From: Solicola gregarius
GTDB taxonomy: Bacteria; Actinomycetota; Actinomycetes; Propionibacteriales; Nocardioidaceae
Direction: 5' to 3'
Assembly (NCBI RefSeq): GCF_025790165.1
Contig: NZ_CP094970.1
Coordinates: 4,402,001 to 4,466,000, forward strand
DNA length: 64,000 nucleotides
This document shows positions 21,172-43,517 of this stretch, one piece after another. How positions within the stretch are numbered: the stretch's first letter is position 1; every line of letters begins with the position of its first letter. The notes beneath the pieces were generated by a model. That model did not search any database and was not told the origin of the DNA. It was given only the letters and a program-made list of their open reading frames with translations. The position numbers were made by a program, and so were the translations under genes.

Positions 21172-21182
21172 TCTCCATGGGC

Positions 21183-21188
21183 TATCAT
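21183..21188 (+). promoter_or_regulatory. -10 box of the second vapBC
   Basis: TATCAT is followed by six bases and the ATG at 21195, predicting a leaderless antitoxin mRNA. Confidence 0.5.
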
Positions 21189-21194
21189 GAGCAC

Positions 21195-21434
21195 ATGCGT
21201 ATGCACATAGAGTTGGACGACGACCTGATCGAGAAGGTCGACGACATCGCGGGCCACCGCGGGCGCAGCGCATTCGTCCGCGCCGCGATCGTGCGTGCGG
21301 TCGACCAGGAGCTGCGTTGGTCGAGCCTCGAGTCCGCCGCCGGCGCCCTCAGCGGCACCGAGCACGCTTGGGACGGCGACACCGCGGCCTGGGTACGCGA
21401 GCAGCGGCGCGCCGACGAGCGTCGGGCCGGTTGA
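21195..21434 (+). CDS. vapB: VapB-family antitoxin
   Basis: This is a 79-residue antitoxin. MRMHIELDDDLIEKVDDIAGHRGRSAFVRAAIVRAV is a classic ribbon-helix-helix N-terminus, and the C-terminal half with WDGDTAAWVREQRRADERR would embrace the toxin. ATG 21195 is chosen because a TATCAT box lies six bases upstream. ATG 21177 would put the promoter inside the gene. It is followed after 3 bases by the VapC gene. As in related modules, the antitoxin should autoregulate the pair. Confidence 0.88.
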   Translation: MRMHIELDDDLIEKVDDIAGHRGRSAFVRAAIVRAVDQELRWSSLESAAGALSGTEHAWDGDTAAWVREQRRADERRAG

Positions 21435-21437
21435 CCT

Positions 21438-21827
21438 GTGCTCCACGTGCTCGACTCGACCGTCCTCATCGACTACCTGCGCGGCCGCCCCGCTGTCGAG
21501 CGACTTCGCGGCTTGCGTACGCGCGGCGATGTGCCGGCAACCACCGCGGTCAACGTCGAGGAGATCGTCCGAGGCGTCCGCATGGGCGAGGTCGACGCGA
21601 CCGACCGGCTCTTCGCCGGCCTGATCGTGTTACCGGTCGATCCAATGGCAGGCCGACGGGCGGGGGCCTGGCGGCGGGAGTTTGCGCGCCAAGGGGTGAC
21701 CCTCTGGCAGGCGGACTGCCTGATCGCGGCGACCGCCGCCTTCCACAACGCTCGCCTCGTCACCGGGAACCCGAAAGACTTCCCGATGGCCGGCCTCGCC
21801 GTCGAGCACTGGCCCGTGGGGGAGTGA
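21438..21827 (+). CDS. vapC: VapC-family PIN-domain toxin
   Basis: This is a 129-residue PIN ribonuclease. The acidic residues of the active site are visible in MLHVLDSTVLIDYLRG, TTAVNVEEIVRG, LWQADCLIAATA and LVTGNPKDF. The GTG start is 3 bases from the antitoxin stop. It is only distantly similar to the VapC at 4718, so the two modules were probably acquired separately. The RNA target is unknown. Confidence 0.9.
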   Translation: MLHVLDSTVLIDYLRGRPAVERLRGLRTRGDVPATTAVNVEEIVRGVRMGEVDATDRLFAGLIVLPVDPMAGRRAGAWRREFARQGVTLWQADCLIAATAAFHNARLVTGNPKDFPMAGLAVEHWPVGE

Positions 21828-21882: not shown

Positions 21883-24654
21883 ATGACCTCCCCGGCCGAA
21901 CGGTACGCACAGTTCCGGGCCGATCAGGCAAGACCCGCACTCACAGACTTCCGCCGGCTCTACGACTTCGACCTCGATGCGTACCAGATCGAGGCGTGCC
22001 AGGCACTCGAAGACGGCCACGGCGTGCTCCTCGCGGCGCCCACCGGATCGGGCAAGACCATCCTCGGCGAGTTCGCCGTGCACCTCGCGCTGGAGCAGGG
22101 TCGAAAGTGCTTCTACACCACCCCGATCAAGGCGCTTTCGAACCAGAAGTACGCGGATCTGGTCGCGCGACACGGCGAGCGCAACGTCGGGCTGCTGACC
22201 GGCGACAACTCCGTCAACGGCGAGGCACCGATCGTCGTCATGACGACCGAGGTGCTGCGGAACATGCTGTACGCCGGCTCGCGAACGCTCGAGGGCCTCG
22301 GCTACGTCGTGATGGACGAGGTGCACTACCTTGCCGACCGGTTCCGCGGCGCGGTGTGGGAAGAGGTCATCATCCACCTGCCCGAGTCCGTTTCGGTGGT
22401 GTCGCTGTCGGCGACGGTCTCGAACGCCGAGGAGTTCGGTGATTGGCTGAGCGAGGTACGCGGCGACACGGTCACGGTCGTCGAGGAGCGACGCCCGGTG
22501 CCGCTCTACCAGCACGTGATGGTCGGGCGACGGATGTTCGACCTGTTCGAGAGCGACGACCAGGCCGACGGCAACGCGACGCGGGTCAACCGCGAGCTCG
22601 AGCGCATCGCCCGCGACGAGTGGCGGGCGCGTACGGTCGGCAAGTCGGCGCGTGGCCGCGGCGCGCGTCCCGGCAAGGGCGGCAGCCGTGGGCGCTCGTA
22701 CGCCGCGAGCCGCCATCGCGGACGGCACTACACACCGAGCCGGGTCGACGTGCTCAACCGGCTCGATGCCGCCGGACTCCTTCCCGCCATCGTGTTCATC
22801 TTCAGCAGGGCCGGCTGCGCGGCGGCCGTCCGGCAATGCCTCGCGAGCGGCCTGCGACTCACGACACCGAGCGAGGAGGCCGAGATCCGGGCGTTCGTGG
22901 CGGAGCACTGCGCGCACATTCCGCGCGACGACCTGCAGGTGCTCGGCTACCACGACTTCGCCGAGGGCCTCTCCCGCGGCATCGCGAGCCACCATGCGGG
23001 GCTGTTGCCGACATTCAAGGAATGCGTCGAGGAGCTGTTCAGCCGTGGGCTCGTCAAGGCGGTGTTCGCCACCGAGACGCTCGCGCTCGGCATCAACATG
23101 CCCGCCCGCTCGGTCGTACTCGAGCGGCTCTCGAAGTGGAACGGCGAGACCCACGCAGATGTGACTCCGGGGGAGTACACCCAGCTGACCGGTCGGGCGG
23201 GTCGTCGTGGCATCGACGTCGAGGGACACGGAGTCGTGCTCTGGCAGCCCGGGCTCGATCCGCGCCAGGTGGCGGGCCTGGCGTCGAAGCGCACGTACCC
23301 GTTGCGGTCGTCCTTCCATCCGTCGTACAACATGGCCGTCAACCTCGTACGCCAGGTCGGCCGGTCCACCACGCGCGAGATGCTGGAGCAGTCGTTCGCG
23401 CAGTTCCAGGCCGACCGGGCGGTGGTCGGGCTCGCCCGCAAGGTGCGCAAGGCGGAGGAGGCACTCGAGGGGTACGCCGAGGCCGCGCAGGGCGACGCCG
23501 GCGACTTCATCGAGTACGCGCGGCTGCGGCGCCGCATCGGCGAGCTCGAGTCGAAGGGCGCGCGTCGTCGCAAGGCGGTCGCCCGTGAGCAGGCGGTCGA
23601 CTCGCTGAACTCGCTCAAGCCTGGTGACGTGATCGACGTTCCCGGCGGCCGCTGGGCCGGCCTTGCCGTCGTCGTCGATCCGGGTACGTACTCGGACCCG
23701 AGCGGTCCGCGGCCGCTCGTGCTCACCCTCGACCGGCACTCGCGCCGGCTGGCGGCCGGTGATTTCCCCACGCCGGTCGAGCCGCTGCTACGGATGCGGA
23801 TCCCCAAGTCGTACAACCCGCGCAACCCCGGCTCGCGCCGTGACCTCGCGTCGGCGTTGCGGGCGAAGACGCAGGACGTCGAGGCGCAGGGGCGTTCGCG
23901 GCGACGTGAGCCCTCCCCGGCCGATCCCGAGCTCGAAGAGCTGCGCGAGCGGCTGCGCGCCCATCCCTGCCACCAGGCGTCCGACCGCGAGGACCGGGTC
24001 CGCTGGGCAGATCGGTATCTCAAGCTCGAGCGGGACACCGCACAGCAGCGCCGCCAGATCGAGACGCGTACGAACACCATTGCGCGGCAGTTCGACCGCG
24101 TCTGCGAGGTGCTCGACGAGCTCGGTTATCTCGACGGCGACGCGGTCACGCCCGACGGCGAACGACTGACCCAGCTGTACTCCGAGCTCGACCTGGTGGC
24201 CAGCGAGTGCATACGACGCGGCACCTGGGACGACCTGTCGCCCGAGGAGCTCTGCGCGGCGTTGTCGGGACTCACCTACGAGGCGCGCAATCCCGACGCC
24301 ATCGCGGGCATCCGTTATCCGACCGCGCAGGTGCGTACGGTCGCATCGCGCATGACCGGTATCGCCGCAGACCTGGAGCGGGTCGAGCGCGACCATCGGC
24401 TCTCGTTCCTGCGCCGTCCCGACTTCGGGTTCGCGTACGCCGCCTGGCAGTGGGCGAGCGGGCGCCCGCTCGACGAGGTGCTCACCGAGGCGGAGCTGGA
24501 GGCCGGCGACTTCGTCCGTGCGGTGAAGCTGGTACTCGATGTCGCCGACCAGGTGGCGAATGCCGCCGGCCCGACCGACCTACGCGACACCGCCCGCGAC
24601 GCCGCGGGCCTCCTTCGCCGCGGCGTCGTCGCCTACACCTCCCTCACCCAATAA
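21883..24654 (+). CDS. helY: DEAD/DEAH-box RNA helicase, HelY/Mtr4-like
   Basis: This is a 923-residue superfamily 2 helicase of the actinobacterial HelY type. It has Walker A APTGSGKT (about residue 52), FYTTPIKALSNQK (motif Ia), MDEVHYL (motif II near 145), SLSATVSN (motif III) and QLTGRAGRRGID (motif VI). A basic stretch near residues 250-285 (RGRGARPGKGGSRGRSYA) may bind RNA. The C-terminal DSHCT domain is preceded by a long beta-barrel insert. Relatives unwind structured RNA for degradation or rRNA processing. Its TAA is 10 bases before the 22-bp repeat array. Confidence 0.93.
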   Translation: MTSPAERYAQFRADQARPALTDFRRLYDFDLDAYQIEACQALEDGHGVLLAAPTGSGKTILGEFAVHLALEQGRKCFYTTPIKALSNQKYADLVARHGERNVGLLTGDNSVNGEAPIVVMTTEVLRNMLYAGSRTLEGLGYVVMDEVHYLADRFRGAVWEEVIIHLPESVSVVSLSATVSNAEEFGDWLSEVRGDTVTVVEERRPVPLYQHVMVGRRMFDLFESDDQADGNATRVNRELERIARDEWRARTVGKSARGRGARPGKGGSRGRSYAASRHRGRHYTPSRVDVLNRLDAAGLLPAIVFIFSRAGCAAAVRQCLASGLRLTTPSEEAEIRAFVAEHCAHIPRDDLQVLGYHDFAEGLSRGIASHHAGLLPTFKECVEELFSRGLVKAVFATETLALGINMPARSVVLERLSKWNGETHADVTPGEYTQLTGRAGRRGIDVEGHGVVLWQPGLDPRQVAGLASKRTYPLRSSFHPSYNMAVNLVRQVGRSTTREMLEQSFAQFQADRAVVGLARKVRKAEEALEGYAEAAQGDAGDFIEYARLRRRIGELESKGARRRKAVAREQAVDSLNSLKPGDVIDVPGGRWAGLAVVVDPGTYSDPSGPRPLVLTLDRHSRRLAAGDFPTPVEPLLRMRIPKSYNPRNPGSRRDLASALRAKTQDVEAQGRSRRREPSPADPELEELRERLRAHPCHQASDREDRVRWADRYLKLERDTAQQRRQIETRTNTIARQFDRVCEVLDELGYLDGDAVTPDGERLTQLYSELDLVASECIRRGTWDDLSPEELCAALSGLTYEARNPDAIAGIRYPTAQVRTVASRMTGIAADLERVERDHRLSFLRRPDFGFAYAAWQWASGRPLDEVLTEAELEAGDFVRAVKLVLDVADQVANAAGPTDLRDTARDAAGLLRRGVVAYTSLTQ

Positions 24655-24664
24655 CAACGGTGAG

Positions 24665-24906
24665 GAGAGGATCCCGGCCCCTCGGGGAGAGGATCCCGGC
24701 CCGCTGAGGAGAGGATCCGGGCCCCTCGGGGAGAGGATCCCGGCCCGCTGAGGAGAGGATCCGGGCCCCTCGGCGAGAGGATCCCGGCCCGCCGAGGAGA
24801 GGATCCGGGCCCCTCGGGGAGAGGATCCCGGCCCGCTGAGGAGAGGATCCGGGCCCCTCGGGGAGAGGATCCCGGCCCGGTGAGGAGGGGATCCTGGCCC
24901 GCGTAT
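24665..24906 (+). repeat. Array of eleven 22-bp tandem repeats
   Basis: GAGAGGATCC recurs exactly every 22 bases from 24665 to 24885 (eleven copies, the last with GAGGGGATCC). Two variants alternate: one continues GGGCCCCTCGGG and the other CGGCCCGCTGAG, giving a 44-bp higher-order unit. The 22-bp period equals two helical turns. There are no spacers, so it is not a CRISPR. It fills nearly the whole 312-base gap between helY and the nuclease-like gene. Confidence 0.95.
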
Positions 24907-24972
24907 CCACAGACCGCTCGCTCGCTGTGGACGACGACGGTCGGCATTCGAGTTATCCGCTATTCAATGGGG

Positions 24973-25893
24973 ATGACCGATCTCATCAACAATGGGCAGC
25001 CATTCCTCAACACTGAGTGCCGTGACGCTGGGCTATCTCGCAAGCAGCTCCGTCAGGCACATGCCGAGCGGCGCCTTCGGACCATGTTCCGCGGTGTCAG
25101 CGTCGATGCGGCCATCCCCGAAACACGAGAGCTCCGAATCGCGGCGATCAGACTTGTCGCGCCACCGTACGCCGTCGTCTGCGACTGTTCGGCATCGTGG
25201 ATCCACGGCGTCGATACCTTCCGCCCGAGCGAACGGTTCGACCTGGTTCCGTCGCTGGTCGTACCGCACAGTCGTACCCGCGTCGTGCGCTCGAACGCTC
25301 GCTGCCGCCAGGCACTCATTCCTACCGCCGACGTCATGGAGATCGACGGCGTTCTCGTCACCGTCCCGGTGCGCACGGCGTCCGATCTCCTGCGGAAGCT
25401 CTGGCCGCCGTACGCGCTCGCGGCAGCGGATGGTCTCGCACACGCCGGACTGATCGACCCGCTCGAGCTCTGGCATTACGTAGCGAGGCTGAAGGGGTAT
25501 CGAGGCATCGTGCAAGCCAGGCGGCTGGCCGATCTCGTCGAACCCGACACCGAGTCGCCGGGAGAGTCCTGGACGCGGTTGCGCCTCGTGGATGCCGGCT
25601 TCCCCCGACCCGAACCGCAGTTCGTCGTCACCGACCGCCATGGCCGCGAGATCTACCGTCTCGACCTGGCGTACCCCGAGCAGCAGGTCGCTGTCGAGTA
25701 CGACGGAATGGAGTTTCACACCGACGATCCCGACTCCGAGCACGATGACGGCCGTCGCCAGGAGCTTCGTGACCGCTGGGGATGGCGTTTCGTGGTCGCC
25801 GACCGGAAGTCCATCTTCGGCGACGATGTCGCGTTCGAGCGCGAGGTCGGCGATCTGTTGGGGCGTACGCCGCTGCTGCCGCGTCAGTGGTAG
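24973..25893 (+). CDS. AbiEi-like HTH plus DUF559/Vsr-like nuclease-domain protein
   Basis: This is a 306-residue protein. The N-terminus (TECRDAGLSRKQLRQAHAER) resembles the winged-helix domain of AbiEi-type antitoxins. The middle (VCDCSASWIHGVD) fits the associated scaffold. The C-terminus carries a DUF559/very-short-patch-repair-like nuclease core: IYRLDLAYPEQQVAVEYDG, then FHTDDPDSEHDD and WGWRFVVADRKSIFGD. The acidic residues are intact. ATG 24973 is preferred with GGGG just upstream, and ATG 24967 is possible. Codon usage is less GC-rich than its neighbours at the 5' end. It is bounded on both sides by inverted copies of the same 22-bp repeat, suggesting a mobile or repeat-maintaining cassette. 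Confidence 0.75.
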   Translation: MTDLINNGQPFLNTECRDAGLSRKQLRQAHAERRLRTMFRGVSVDAAIPETRELRIAAIRLVAPPYAVVCDCSASWIHGVDTFRPSERFDLVPSLVVPHSRTRVVRSNARCRQALIPTADVMEIDGVLVTVPVRTASDLLRKLWPPYALAAADGLAHAGLIDPLELWHYVARLKGYRGIVQARRLADLVEPDTESPGESWTRLRLVDAGFPRPEPQFVVTDRHGREIYRLDLAYPEQQVAVEYDGMEFHTDDPDSEHDDGRRQELRDRWGWRFVVADRKSIFGDDVAFEREVGDLLGRTPLLPRQW

Positions 25894-25897
25894 ACCG

Positions 25898-25955
25898 GGA
25901 TCCTCTCCTCACCGGGCCGGGATCCTCTCCTCAGCGGGCCGGGATCCTCTCCTCA
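25898..25955 (-). repeat. Three inverted copies of the 22-bp repeat
   Basis: GGATCCTCTC starts at 25898, 25920 and 25942, again at 22-base spacing, and is the reverse complement of the repeat on the other side of the nuclease-like gene. The last copy runs into the stop codon of the convergent exonuclease gene (25953-25955). Confidence 0.92.
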
Positions 25956-26891
25956 GCGGTAGTGGGCGAGGGCGTCGAGGATGCGCTGTTCGGCTCCGCC
26001 GAGTCCCCAGCGAACCGCGAACTCGCGGAACCGCTCCGCCTCGCTGTCGGCGATCGGCCCCAGGGACAGCTCGGGGTCGCCGATCGCTGCATCGCTGGCC
26101 ACCCGTACGACCTTCGGCGCCACATCGAGGTAGTCGGCTCCCTCGACGATGTTGCGCCGGGCGCGCGGCTTGATGTCAGACCAGCGATCGCCCGCCGCCT
26201 CGCGGATCGCATCGAGCGTGCCGTACTCCCGCACCAGCGCGGCGGCCGTCTTGTCGCCGATGCCCGCGATGCCCGGCAGCCCGTCGGACGGATCTCCGCG
26301 CAGCACCGCGAAGTCGACGTACTGATGCGGGCGTACGCCGTACTTGCCGACGATCACCTCGTCGGTCACCTGCTCGAGGTTCCCGACGCCTCGCGCGGTG
26401 TAGAGCACCCGATGCTTCAGCGCGTCGTCGACCAGCTGGAACAGGTCGCGGTCGCCGGTGACGATGTCGACCGGCCCGTCCCAGCGATGGGTGAGGGTCC
26501 CGATCACGTCGTCGGCCTCGTTATCCGCCGCTCCGACGACGGCGATACCCAGCAACCCGAGCGCCTCCGCGATCAGCGGTACCTGCGGCGAGAGCAGGTC
26601 GGGTGTCTCCTCGACATCGGGGTCGTCCTCGACGACCTCCTCGACTCGGTGGGCCTTGTACGTCGGCAACAGCTCGACCCGCCAGGCCGGGCGCCAGTCG
26701 TCGTCCCAGCACGCGGCGATGGCGTCCGGACGGTAGTCGGAGACGAGTCGCGCGACGAAGTCCAACAGCCCGCGTAGCGCATTCACCGGCGTACCGTCGG
26801 GAGCGCGGATCGTGTCGGGTATGCCGAAGAACGCGCGAAAGTACAACGACGCGGTGTCGAGCAGCAGCAGACGCTTCGCGGAATCGGCCAT
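25953..26891 (-). CDS. 5'-3' exonuclease (FEN-like, Pol I N-domain type)
   Basis: This is a 312-residue stand-alone homologue of the 5' nuclease domain of DNA polymerase I. The acidic metal sites are present: LLLLDTASLYFRAF, AACWDDDWRP, EADDVIGTL and VTGDRDLFQLV. The helix-hairpin-helix GLPGIAGIGDKTAAALVREYG binds DNA. Such proteins remove RNA primers and flaps in replication and repair. The ATG at 26891 starts the conserved domain. The stop codon is embedded in the last inverted copy of the 22-bp repeat, so the repeat insertion may have trimmed or replaced its original 3' end. Confidence 0.92.
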   Translation of the reverse strand: MADSAKRLLLLDTASLYFRAFFGIPDTIRAPDGTPVNALRGLLDFVARLVSDYRPDAIAACWDDDWRPAWRVELLPTYKAHRVEEVVEDDPDVEETPDLLSPQVPLIAEALGLLGIAVVGAADNEADDVIGTLTHRWDGPVDIVTGDRDLFQLVDDALKHRVLYTARGVGNLEQVTDEVIVGKYGVRPHQYVDFAVLRGDPSDGLPGIAGIGDKTAAALVREYGTLDAIREAAGDRWSDIKPRARRNIVEGADYLDVAPKVVRVASDAAIGDPELSLGPIADSEAERFREFAVRWGLGGAEQRILDALAHYR

Positions 26892-43370: not shown

Positions 43371-43378
43371 CGCGCGGT

Positions 43379-43517
43379 GGCTCGCAAGCTCGCTCCTCAG
43401 ATGTCGCGGCCTTGGATCGCGACATCTTGCGGGGCTCGCAAGCTCGCTCCTCAGATGTCGCGGCCTTGGATCGCGACATCTTGCGGGGCTCGCAAGCTCG
43501 CTCCTCAGATGTCGCGG
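43379..43517. repeat. 54-bp tandem repeat running into the murA-like stop
   Basis: GGCTCGCAAGCTCGCTCC begins at 43379, 43433 and 43487, an exact 54-base period with two full copies and a third partial copy. Each full copy holds AGATGTCGCG and CGCGACATCT, a 10-bp stem with loop GCCTTGGAT. The third copy contains the stop codon and last codons of the XRE-MurA gene. Confidence 0.92.

Follow-up and report, generated by a model that had tools for sequence, protein, structure and literature searches.

A nuclease gene bracketed by inverted arrays of its own repeat: a putative REP/RAYT-like element of unrelated parts in actinobacteria-like genomes

In genome G000 (4.92 Mb, single contig), a gene for a predicted nuclease lies between two arrays of a 22-bp repeat that point towards each other, in the junction between a helicase gene and an exonuclease gene. 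Do this gene and its repeats form a single genetic element and, if so, what kind of element could it be? We examined the locus within a window of 64,000 nucleotides, corresponding to positions 4402001-4466000 of G000 (Table 1), and followed both the repeat and the gene into other genomes.

Table 1. Features of the nuclease locus, in window coordinates
Feature	Position	Strand	Description
helY-type DEAD/DSHCT helicase gene	21883..24654	+	left neighbour
Left arm	24662..24900	+	11 direct 22-bp repeat units, inward-pointing from helY stop
TCCACA + TGTGGA (DnaA-box-like)	24906..24931	.	between gene and left arm
Nuclease gene, 306 aa	24973..25893	+	N-terminal half AbiEi-like, C-terminal part Vsr/MTES_1575/DUF559-like
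Right arm	25895..25960	-	3 inverted 22-bp units, inward-pointing from exonuclease stop
5'-3' exonuclease gene	25953..26891 (start approximate)	-	right neighbour

The helY stop (24654) is followed after 7 nt by the left array, which amounts to 10.9 copies by TRF. Two 22-mers alternate within it, giving a match of 95% at period 44 and 81% at period 22; 10 of the 11 left units and all three right units contain the 10-mer GAGAGGATCC without a mismatch. At the other end, the TGA of the last right unit doubles as the exonuclease TGA (25953-25955). The nuclease gene itself likely extends from the ATG at 24973 to a TAG stop at 25893, and a TGTGGA lies 47 nt upstream of this ATG. The original prediction for the locus, that 11 direct and three inverted copies surround the gene, that the arrays sit hard against the helY and exonuclease stops, and that the protein joins an AbiEi-like N-terminus to a DUF559/Vsr-type nuclease domain, held on each of these points, the last through PADLOC, Pfam and profile matches. 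Its description of the 22-bp repeat as exact held only in part, since it applies to the core GAGAGGATCC and not to the whole unit, with its two alternating 22-mers. Elsewhere in the window lie a small gene pair upstream of helY (21177-21827, MLHVLDSTVLIDYLRG start), which we take to be VapBC toxin-antitoxin-like, and a 54-bp unit present in 2.6 copies with a 98% match (43374-43517).

The AbiEi-like half of the window protein spans approximately residues 14-185, and the Vsr/MTES_1575/DUF559-like part approximately residues 219-274. The N-terminal half gave a best match of 3.3e-9 to the PADLOC AbiEi models, and the C-terminal part matched Pfam MTES_1575, a domain described as a Vsr-family REase (PMC3710099), at 1.8e-4, which is weaker than the curated Pfam cut-off. 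We aligned 46 of 99 homologues; L071, with its truncated frame, had been excluded from the proteins considered. The 46 matched PADLOC AbiEi models in 44 cases, MTES_1575 in 33, AbiEi_4 in 19, AbiEi_1 in 16 and DUF559 in 14. E198 and E242 are invariant across the alignment, and at least 90% of the sequences share D231, D244, D258, R261 and Q216; such conservation is expected of a working Vsr-like nuclease. The acidic catalytic-type residues of a Vsr-like or PD-(D/E)XK-type nuclease are present; nuclease activity is inferred from sequence alone. By profile, the closest solved structure was 3hrl (1.5e-4), and weaker, individually non-significant matches were obtained to PvuRts1I (0.02), the mobile intron protein 3r3p (0.024) and Vsr (0.23). 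A single-sequence structure prediction was of poor confidence (mean pLDDT 34.6). No match to the Y1 transposase (Pfam, E 0.1) was found in the window protein or among the families matched by the 46 homologues, and a search of viral contigs returned no relative of the window protein.

The start region of the gene carries a further recurrent feature. A TGTGGA or TCCACA element lies within -160 to +30 of the start in 91 of the 99 homologues; among control genes the count is 42 of 709. Its distance upstream of the start is often about 48 or 58 nt, positions that differ by one helical turn. A strict DnaA box occurs in the same region in 29 homologues versus 3 control genes. It is possible that this DnaA-box-like element means replication-linked control of the gene.

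Is the repeat confined to this locus? Exact copies of GAGGAGAGGATCC number 60 in G000, with none of the reversed control pattern, and GAGGAGAGNNNNNNGGCC occurs 155 times, with 2 occurrences of its reversed control; across 57 relatives, GAGGAGAGNNNNNNGGCC was found 0-8 times per genome, a number near the reversed-control level and attributable to chance. A contig search with GAGGAGAGNNTTCTGGCC returned 119 stretches, at least 80 of them with a single match each. The genome-wide copies, designated GAGGAGAG units, rule out a repeat limited to the window locus. They form 43 clusters of two or more units, equivalent to at least 42 loci because the gene locus yields two clusters; 42 is a lower bound because only the first 100 of the 155 GAGGAGAGNNNNNNGGCC places entered the count. 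In all 39 clusters with both orientations, every + unit precedes every - unit, so that they point inward. The usual order at a locus is a stop codon, units, a few bases, inverted units, and the stop codon of the next gene. At the 23 array sites for which genes were called (with a simple codon-usage script), 12 arrays lie between converging genes and 19 have one end -2 to 8 nt from a gene stop; four array elements beside stop codons are predicted to form very strong hairpins, with z of -11.6 to -19.0. All clusters other than the window locus span at most 251 bp, and therefore only the window locus has a gene-filled loop. Clusters are unevenly placed: no multi-unit cluster was found between about 1.34 and 2.65 Mb of G000, and 3.1-4.4 Mb is dense.

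The original prediction was to be refuted if the repeat occurred only here, which is not the case, or equally often without the gene, which is literally the case, as 41 of the at least 42 loci lack it. This gene-less majority does not refute the reading, because REPs and RAYTs behave likewise, with one enzyme gene and many gene-less copies.

If the gene and the repeats belong together, homologues elsewhere are expected to be bracketed as well, perhaps by other sequences. As a bracketing score we took, within the 400 nt upstream of a gene, the number of nucleotides lying in 11-mers whose inverted copy also occurs within the 400 nt downstream, using 97 of the 99 homologue loci (L258 and L260 were excluded for short flanks). 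An inverted repeat was shared at 20 nt or more by 68 of the 97 loci, at 30 or more by 54 and at 40 or more by 42; in 1455 mismatched pairs, the same cut-offs were reached by 57, 22 and 13. As controls we scored 194 genes of 600-1500 nt from array-rich stretches. The only four to reach 30 nt were the four DUF559-like genes among them; of the other 190, 4 reached 20 nt and none 30 nt. By batch, 23 of the first 36 loci reached 20 nt vs 3 of 26 exonuclease control loci, as did 21 of 24 in a later class-wide batch vs 40 of 552 mismatched pairs, the cut-off for these 24 having been fixed in the script before the scores were known. The bracketing repeat differs in sequence from homologue to homologue. 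Across genomes, inverted repeats bracket the gene, and the repeat changes with the gene. These bracketed homologues in other genomes rule out that a DUF559 gene simply entered an array of this species in a one-off insertion.

Bracketing was not universal, and the loci are not all independent. Among the 29 of 97 loci scoring below 20 nt, some have arrays of diverged units and others, several of them in f7 and f20 genomes, have none. Locus counts are not counts of independent events, because some loci have a common ancestry: of the first 36, 8 occupy a junction that we take, from the translations, to be DUF349-relA, and 3, perhaps 4, one that we likewise take to be rbpA-pgl. Repeats found at the shared junction are nonetheless not the same. 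A separate observation concerns L295-L309, from f7 g36 genomes (which we take to be Mycobacterium-like, as we take f1 to be Nocardioidaceae-like). Each genome here has several homologues, some of them beside single long palindromes such as GCGAGCGTGCGTGTCTGCACACGACACGCC rather than tandem arrays, and these single-palindrome loci may possibly represent another form of the system.

Like the gene-less arrays of G000, the homologues favour convergent junctions. Converging neighbours surround the gene at 33 of the first 36 loci and at 18 of the 22 second-batch loci with both neighbours known; the baseline is 82 of 355 genes in sampled stretches. In the last batch, mostly f7 genomes, 9 of 19 loci were convergent; start calls there were poor, and several flanks had single long palindromes in lieu of tandem arrays. 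Empty helY-exonuclease sites, which the original prediction had proposed to seek, do exist: at 11 of 27 relatives' loci (L075, L076, L078-L083, L089, L093, L094), helY and the exonuclease gene converge at close range with no DUF559-type gene between them and with 6-390 nt between aligned ends (the L075 interval includes a run of N). At the remaining relatives' loci helY was more distant, turned or not seen. In G004, the space between the two genes is taken up by a gene-less hairpin built from the repeat of G004's own gene, with 40 nt shared. Occupancy of the helY-exonuclease junction thus varies between genomes, from gene-bearing through gene-less hairpin to nearly empty.

The congeners G000 and G001 differ at other junctions. 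Three G000 array junctions (L016, L034, L036) match G001 junctions (L247, L242, L243) that carry an array of another unit in the same place. This match is suggestive and is not a rate, because the G001 loci were chosen by their repeat and the comparison covered only 23 G000 sites. Overwriting of one array by another is a possible explanation, and independent arrival fits as well. At G000 3.727-3.728 Mb (L036:3897-5583), two genes, which we take to be hydrolase-like and MarR-like, lie between two complete arrays, and the corresponding G001 locus L243 has one array and no gene; conceivably, arrays may serve as entry points for new genes.

Are the repeats of other homologues dispersed too? The G032 unit is present in 108 exact copies in G032 and in none of 14 other genomes, including the congener G011; a few other G032 genes also lie between or beside arrays. 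The G001 unit has 13 copies in G001, including 4 at its gene; none of 14 other genomes has more than 2. Among 394 class genomes, eight carry 24 or more copies of GTGATCATGCA (413, 328, 106, 90, 45, 35, 28 and 24; the next has 19). The GTGATCATGCA core is found at exactly five of the 99 gene loci (L251, L252, L253, L265, L267), and the five genomes concerned (G086, G211, G308, G147, G084) are all among the eight. A prediction made beforehand, that G194 would carry exact GTGATCATGCA at its gene, failed; the near variant CGTGATCTTGCA is found there. G113 and G128, with 24 and 35 GTGATCATGCA copies, gave no gene match at 1e-20; both genomes are 84% complete. In G352, sampled over 200 kb, the repeat of the L259 gene supplies the commonest dispersed intergenic 12-mers. 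Beyond G352, an underpowered de novo comparison of 200-kb samples did not clearly separate genomes that have the gene from those that lack it; the L287 core was not found in its 200-kb sample, and the L262, L281 and L282 cores were not above background. Even L069 and L009, whose repeats are dispersed by exact search, barely stood out, because the G+C-rich background swamped the 200-kb core counts. The L013 and L015 palindromes were found only at their own genes within about 0.3 Mb of G000. Dispersal is therefore shown for several gene-associated repeats, not for every one.

The arrays share a geometry that follows the protein. A tandem period could be measured at 60 of the 99 loci (lags 15-48): 34 arrays have a period of 21-22 bp, 14 of 30-33 and 8 of 42-44, and the other four have periods of 17, 19, 26 and 38. 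Periods of two, three or four helical turns thus account for 56 of 60 arrays. In a quickly made tree of the 99 proteins, with many weak forks, the two/four-turn versus three-turn state changes 7 times, compared with a minimum of 9 in 300 shuffles. More similar proteins also have more similar downstream arrays, a weak but consistent trend (Mantel rho 0.19, 0 of 500 permutations, 54 loci). No common repeat unites the paralogues of one genome. Only 4 of 26 same-genome pairs (3 of 26 with other start points) share 24 nt or more, as do 80 of 754 different-genome pairs, and no shared repeat was seen in paralogue pairs as close as 61% identity. Some of the compared paralogues (e.g. L060, L282, L291) have no measurable bracket of their own. 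Because same-genome paralogues share no more than unrelated pairs, the repeats belong to individual genes rather than to genomes. In G000 itself, the DUF559-type paralogues L010, L012, L013 and L015 have their own repeats or palindromes nearby.

Taken together, the association of gene and repeat is strong; binding, cutting and copying of the repeat by the protein are inferred. Our preferred reading, towards which the balance tips without being decisive, is a REP/RAYT-like element made of unrelated parts, in which an AbiEi-type reader of the 22-bp unit is joined to a Vsr-type nuclease that would spread or renew the repeat. The nuclease gene and its flanking arrays would together make up a single genetic element, with the gene-less arrays as non-autonomous copies of it. 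Recognition of the private 22-bp unit would fall to the AbiEi-like half, and the whole-turn spacing of tandem units would align several monomers along the same face of the DNA; readers of about 22 bp arranged in this way fit the periods seen, an inference from sequence alone. The inverted arms would bring two rows of monomers together, and the Vsr-like nuclease would nick or cut at such sites. Repair templated by another array may then insert, enlarge or overwrite gene-end arrays, chiefly at convergent junctions, and the gene, which occupies the loop formed by the arms, would now and then be copied along to a new junction. A bolder reading is that AbiEi-Vsr proteins act as 'repeat drivers' across Actinomycetes, each writing a private repeat into gene ends chromosome-wide, with arrays overwritten in concert when specificity drifts, such that sister species come to differ at one junction. 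We offer this extension tentatively, and would sooner expect it to fail than to hold.

The closest parallel is the REPtron, in which one enzyme gene is bracketed by short repeats for which the enzyme is specific, enzyme and repeat co-evolve, and gene-less inverted pairs (REPINs) form hairpins that number in the tens to hundreds and mostly lie downstream of genes (PMC3733652, PMC3116915, PMC3686654, PMC8266576). The present system is alike in that the nuclease gene is bracketed by its repeats and gene-less inverted groups are dispersed at gene ends (G000, G032). Unlike a RAYT, the protein is AbiEi-like plus Vsr-like instead of an HUH (Y1) tyrosine transposase; unlike REPs, the units stand in tandem arrays at two to four helical turns, and array-type hairpins arise from the inverted arrays rather than from a palindrome within each unit. 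No GTAG or CGTC tag was apparent in the G000 units in a reading by eye only. By analogy, then, the system may work like a REPtron, with cutting and spreading inferred, but it fails REPtron membership for want of an HUH transposase. The original proposal of a REP/RAYT-like plan, in which a nuclease replaces the transposase, is supported by the bracketed homologues, the dispersed repeats and the unshared repeats of paralogues. The further suggestion of a repeat-amplifying or homing cassette is supported as to plan; amplification or homing itself is not shown.

Other known systems resemble the element in part. AbiEi binds two 23-bp inverted repeats cooperatively, bends the DNA and autoregulates through these repeats, and Rv2827c binds four 23-bp inverted repeats, neither protein binding its counterpart's sites (PMC7319586). 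The N-terminal half of our protein matches AbiEi models, a likeness to the AbiEi antitoxin/Rv2827c family, but unlike AbiEi it is fused to a nuclease and has repeats on both sides and genome-wide; no AbiE nucleotidyltransferase-like toxin gene lies beside the window gene, whose neighbours are helY and the exonuclease gene. Its nuclease domain is related by profile to Vsr and the EDxHD homing endonucleases and to the DUF559 and MTES_1575 nucleases. Unlike homing endonucleases, it is not in an intron or intein, and it is tied to its own arrays at gene ends. CGTC REPs, a dispersed family whose mobilising enzyme is unknown (PMC3733652), are alike in dispersal and differ in sequence and hosts. We recognised no report linking DUF559, MTES_1575 or AbiEi-nuclease genes to dispersed repeats in the open-licence literature searched.

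The most serious rival, which we consider unlikely, is a domesticated regulatory or structural system. Here the protein would bind 3'-end arrays as operators, terminator helpers or chromosome-organising sites, the arrays would change by ordinary slippage and recombination, the nuclease would have a minor or repair role, and the bracketing would reflect AbiEi-like autoregulation. In its favour are the AbiEi-type N-terminus, with the published autoregulation through 23-bp repeats (PMC7319586), the four very strong hairpins next to stop codons, and the three junctions that retain an array in both sister genomes despite the change of sequence. Against it, arrays flank the gene on both sides and occupy tens of sites by other genes, the nuclease-type residues are among the most conserved, and the helY-exonuclease junction differs in occupancy from genome to genome.

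A passive association, in which terminator-like arrays would spread unaided by the protein and the gene would simply come to rest in convergent junctions, could draw on the majority of array loci that lack the gene, on the shared preference of arrays and genes for convergent junctions, and on the few other genes between or beside arrays in G032. We reject it as very unlikely: same-genome paralogues are not set in one common genomic repeat, none of the 190 other genes reached 30 nt, and the period tracks the protein tree. The possibility that a true RAYT (HUH tyrosine transposase) elsewhere in G000 mobilises the repeats is suggested by the REPIN-like layout of inverted units forming hairpins at gene ends. 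It is all but excluded, as homologues in many genomes are bracketed likewise and the bracketed gene has no Y1 match at the threshold given above, a search that did not cover the rest of G000.

If the REP/RAYT-like reading is correct, antitoxin-type DNA readers and Vsr-type nucleases would together provide a second, unrelated solution to the task performed by REPs and RAYTs, and the element would represent an unrecognised kind of self-spreading repeat system in actinobacteria-like genomes. Its spread, itself inferred, could be selfish, useful or both. The reading offers a testable function for an abundant gene family of unknown role, and would identify a common source for many of the species-specific dispersed repeats in these genomes. 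The dozens of natural protein-repeat pairs provide material for learning how such proteins choose their DNA.
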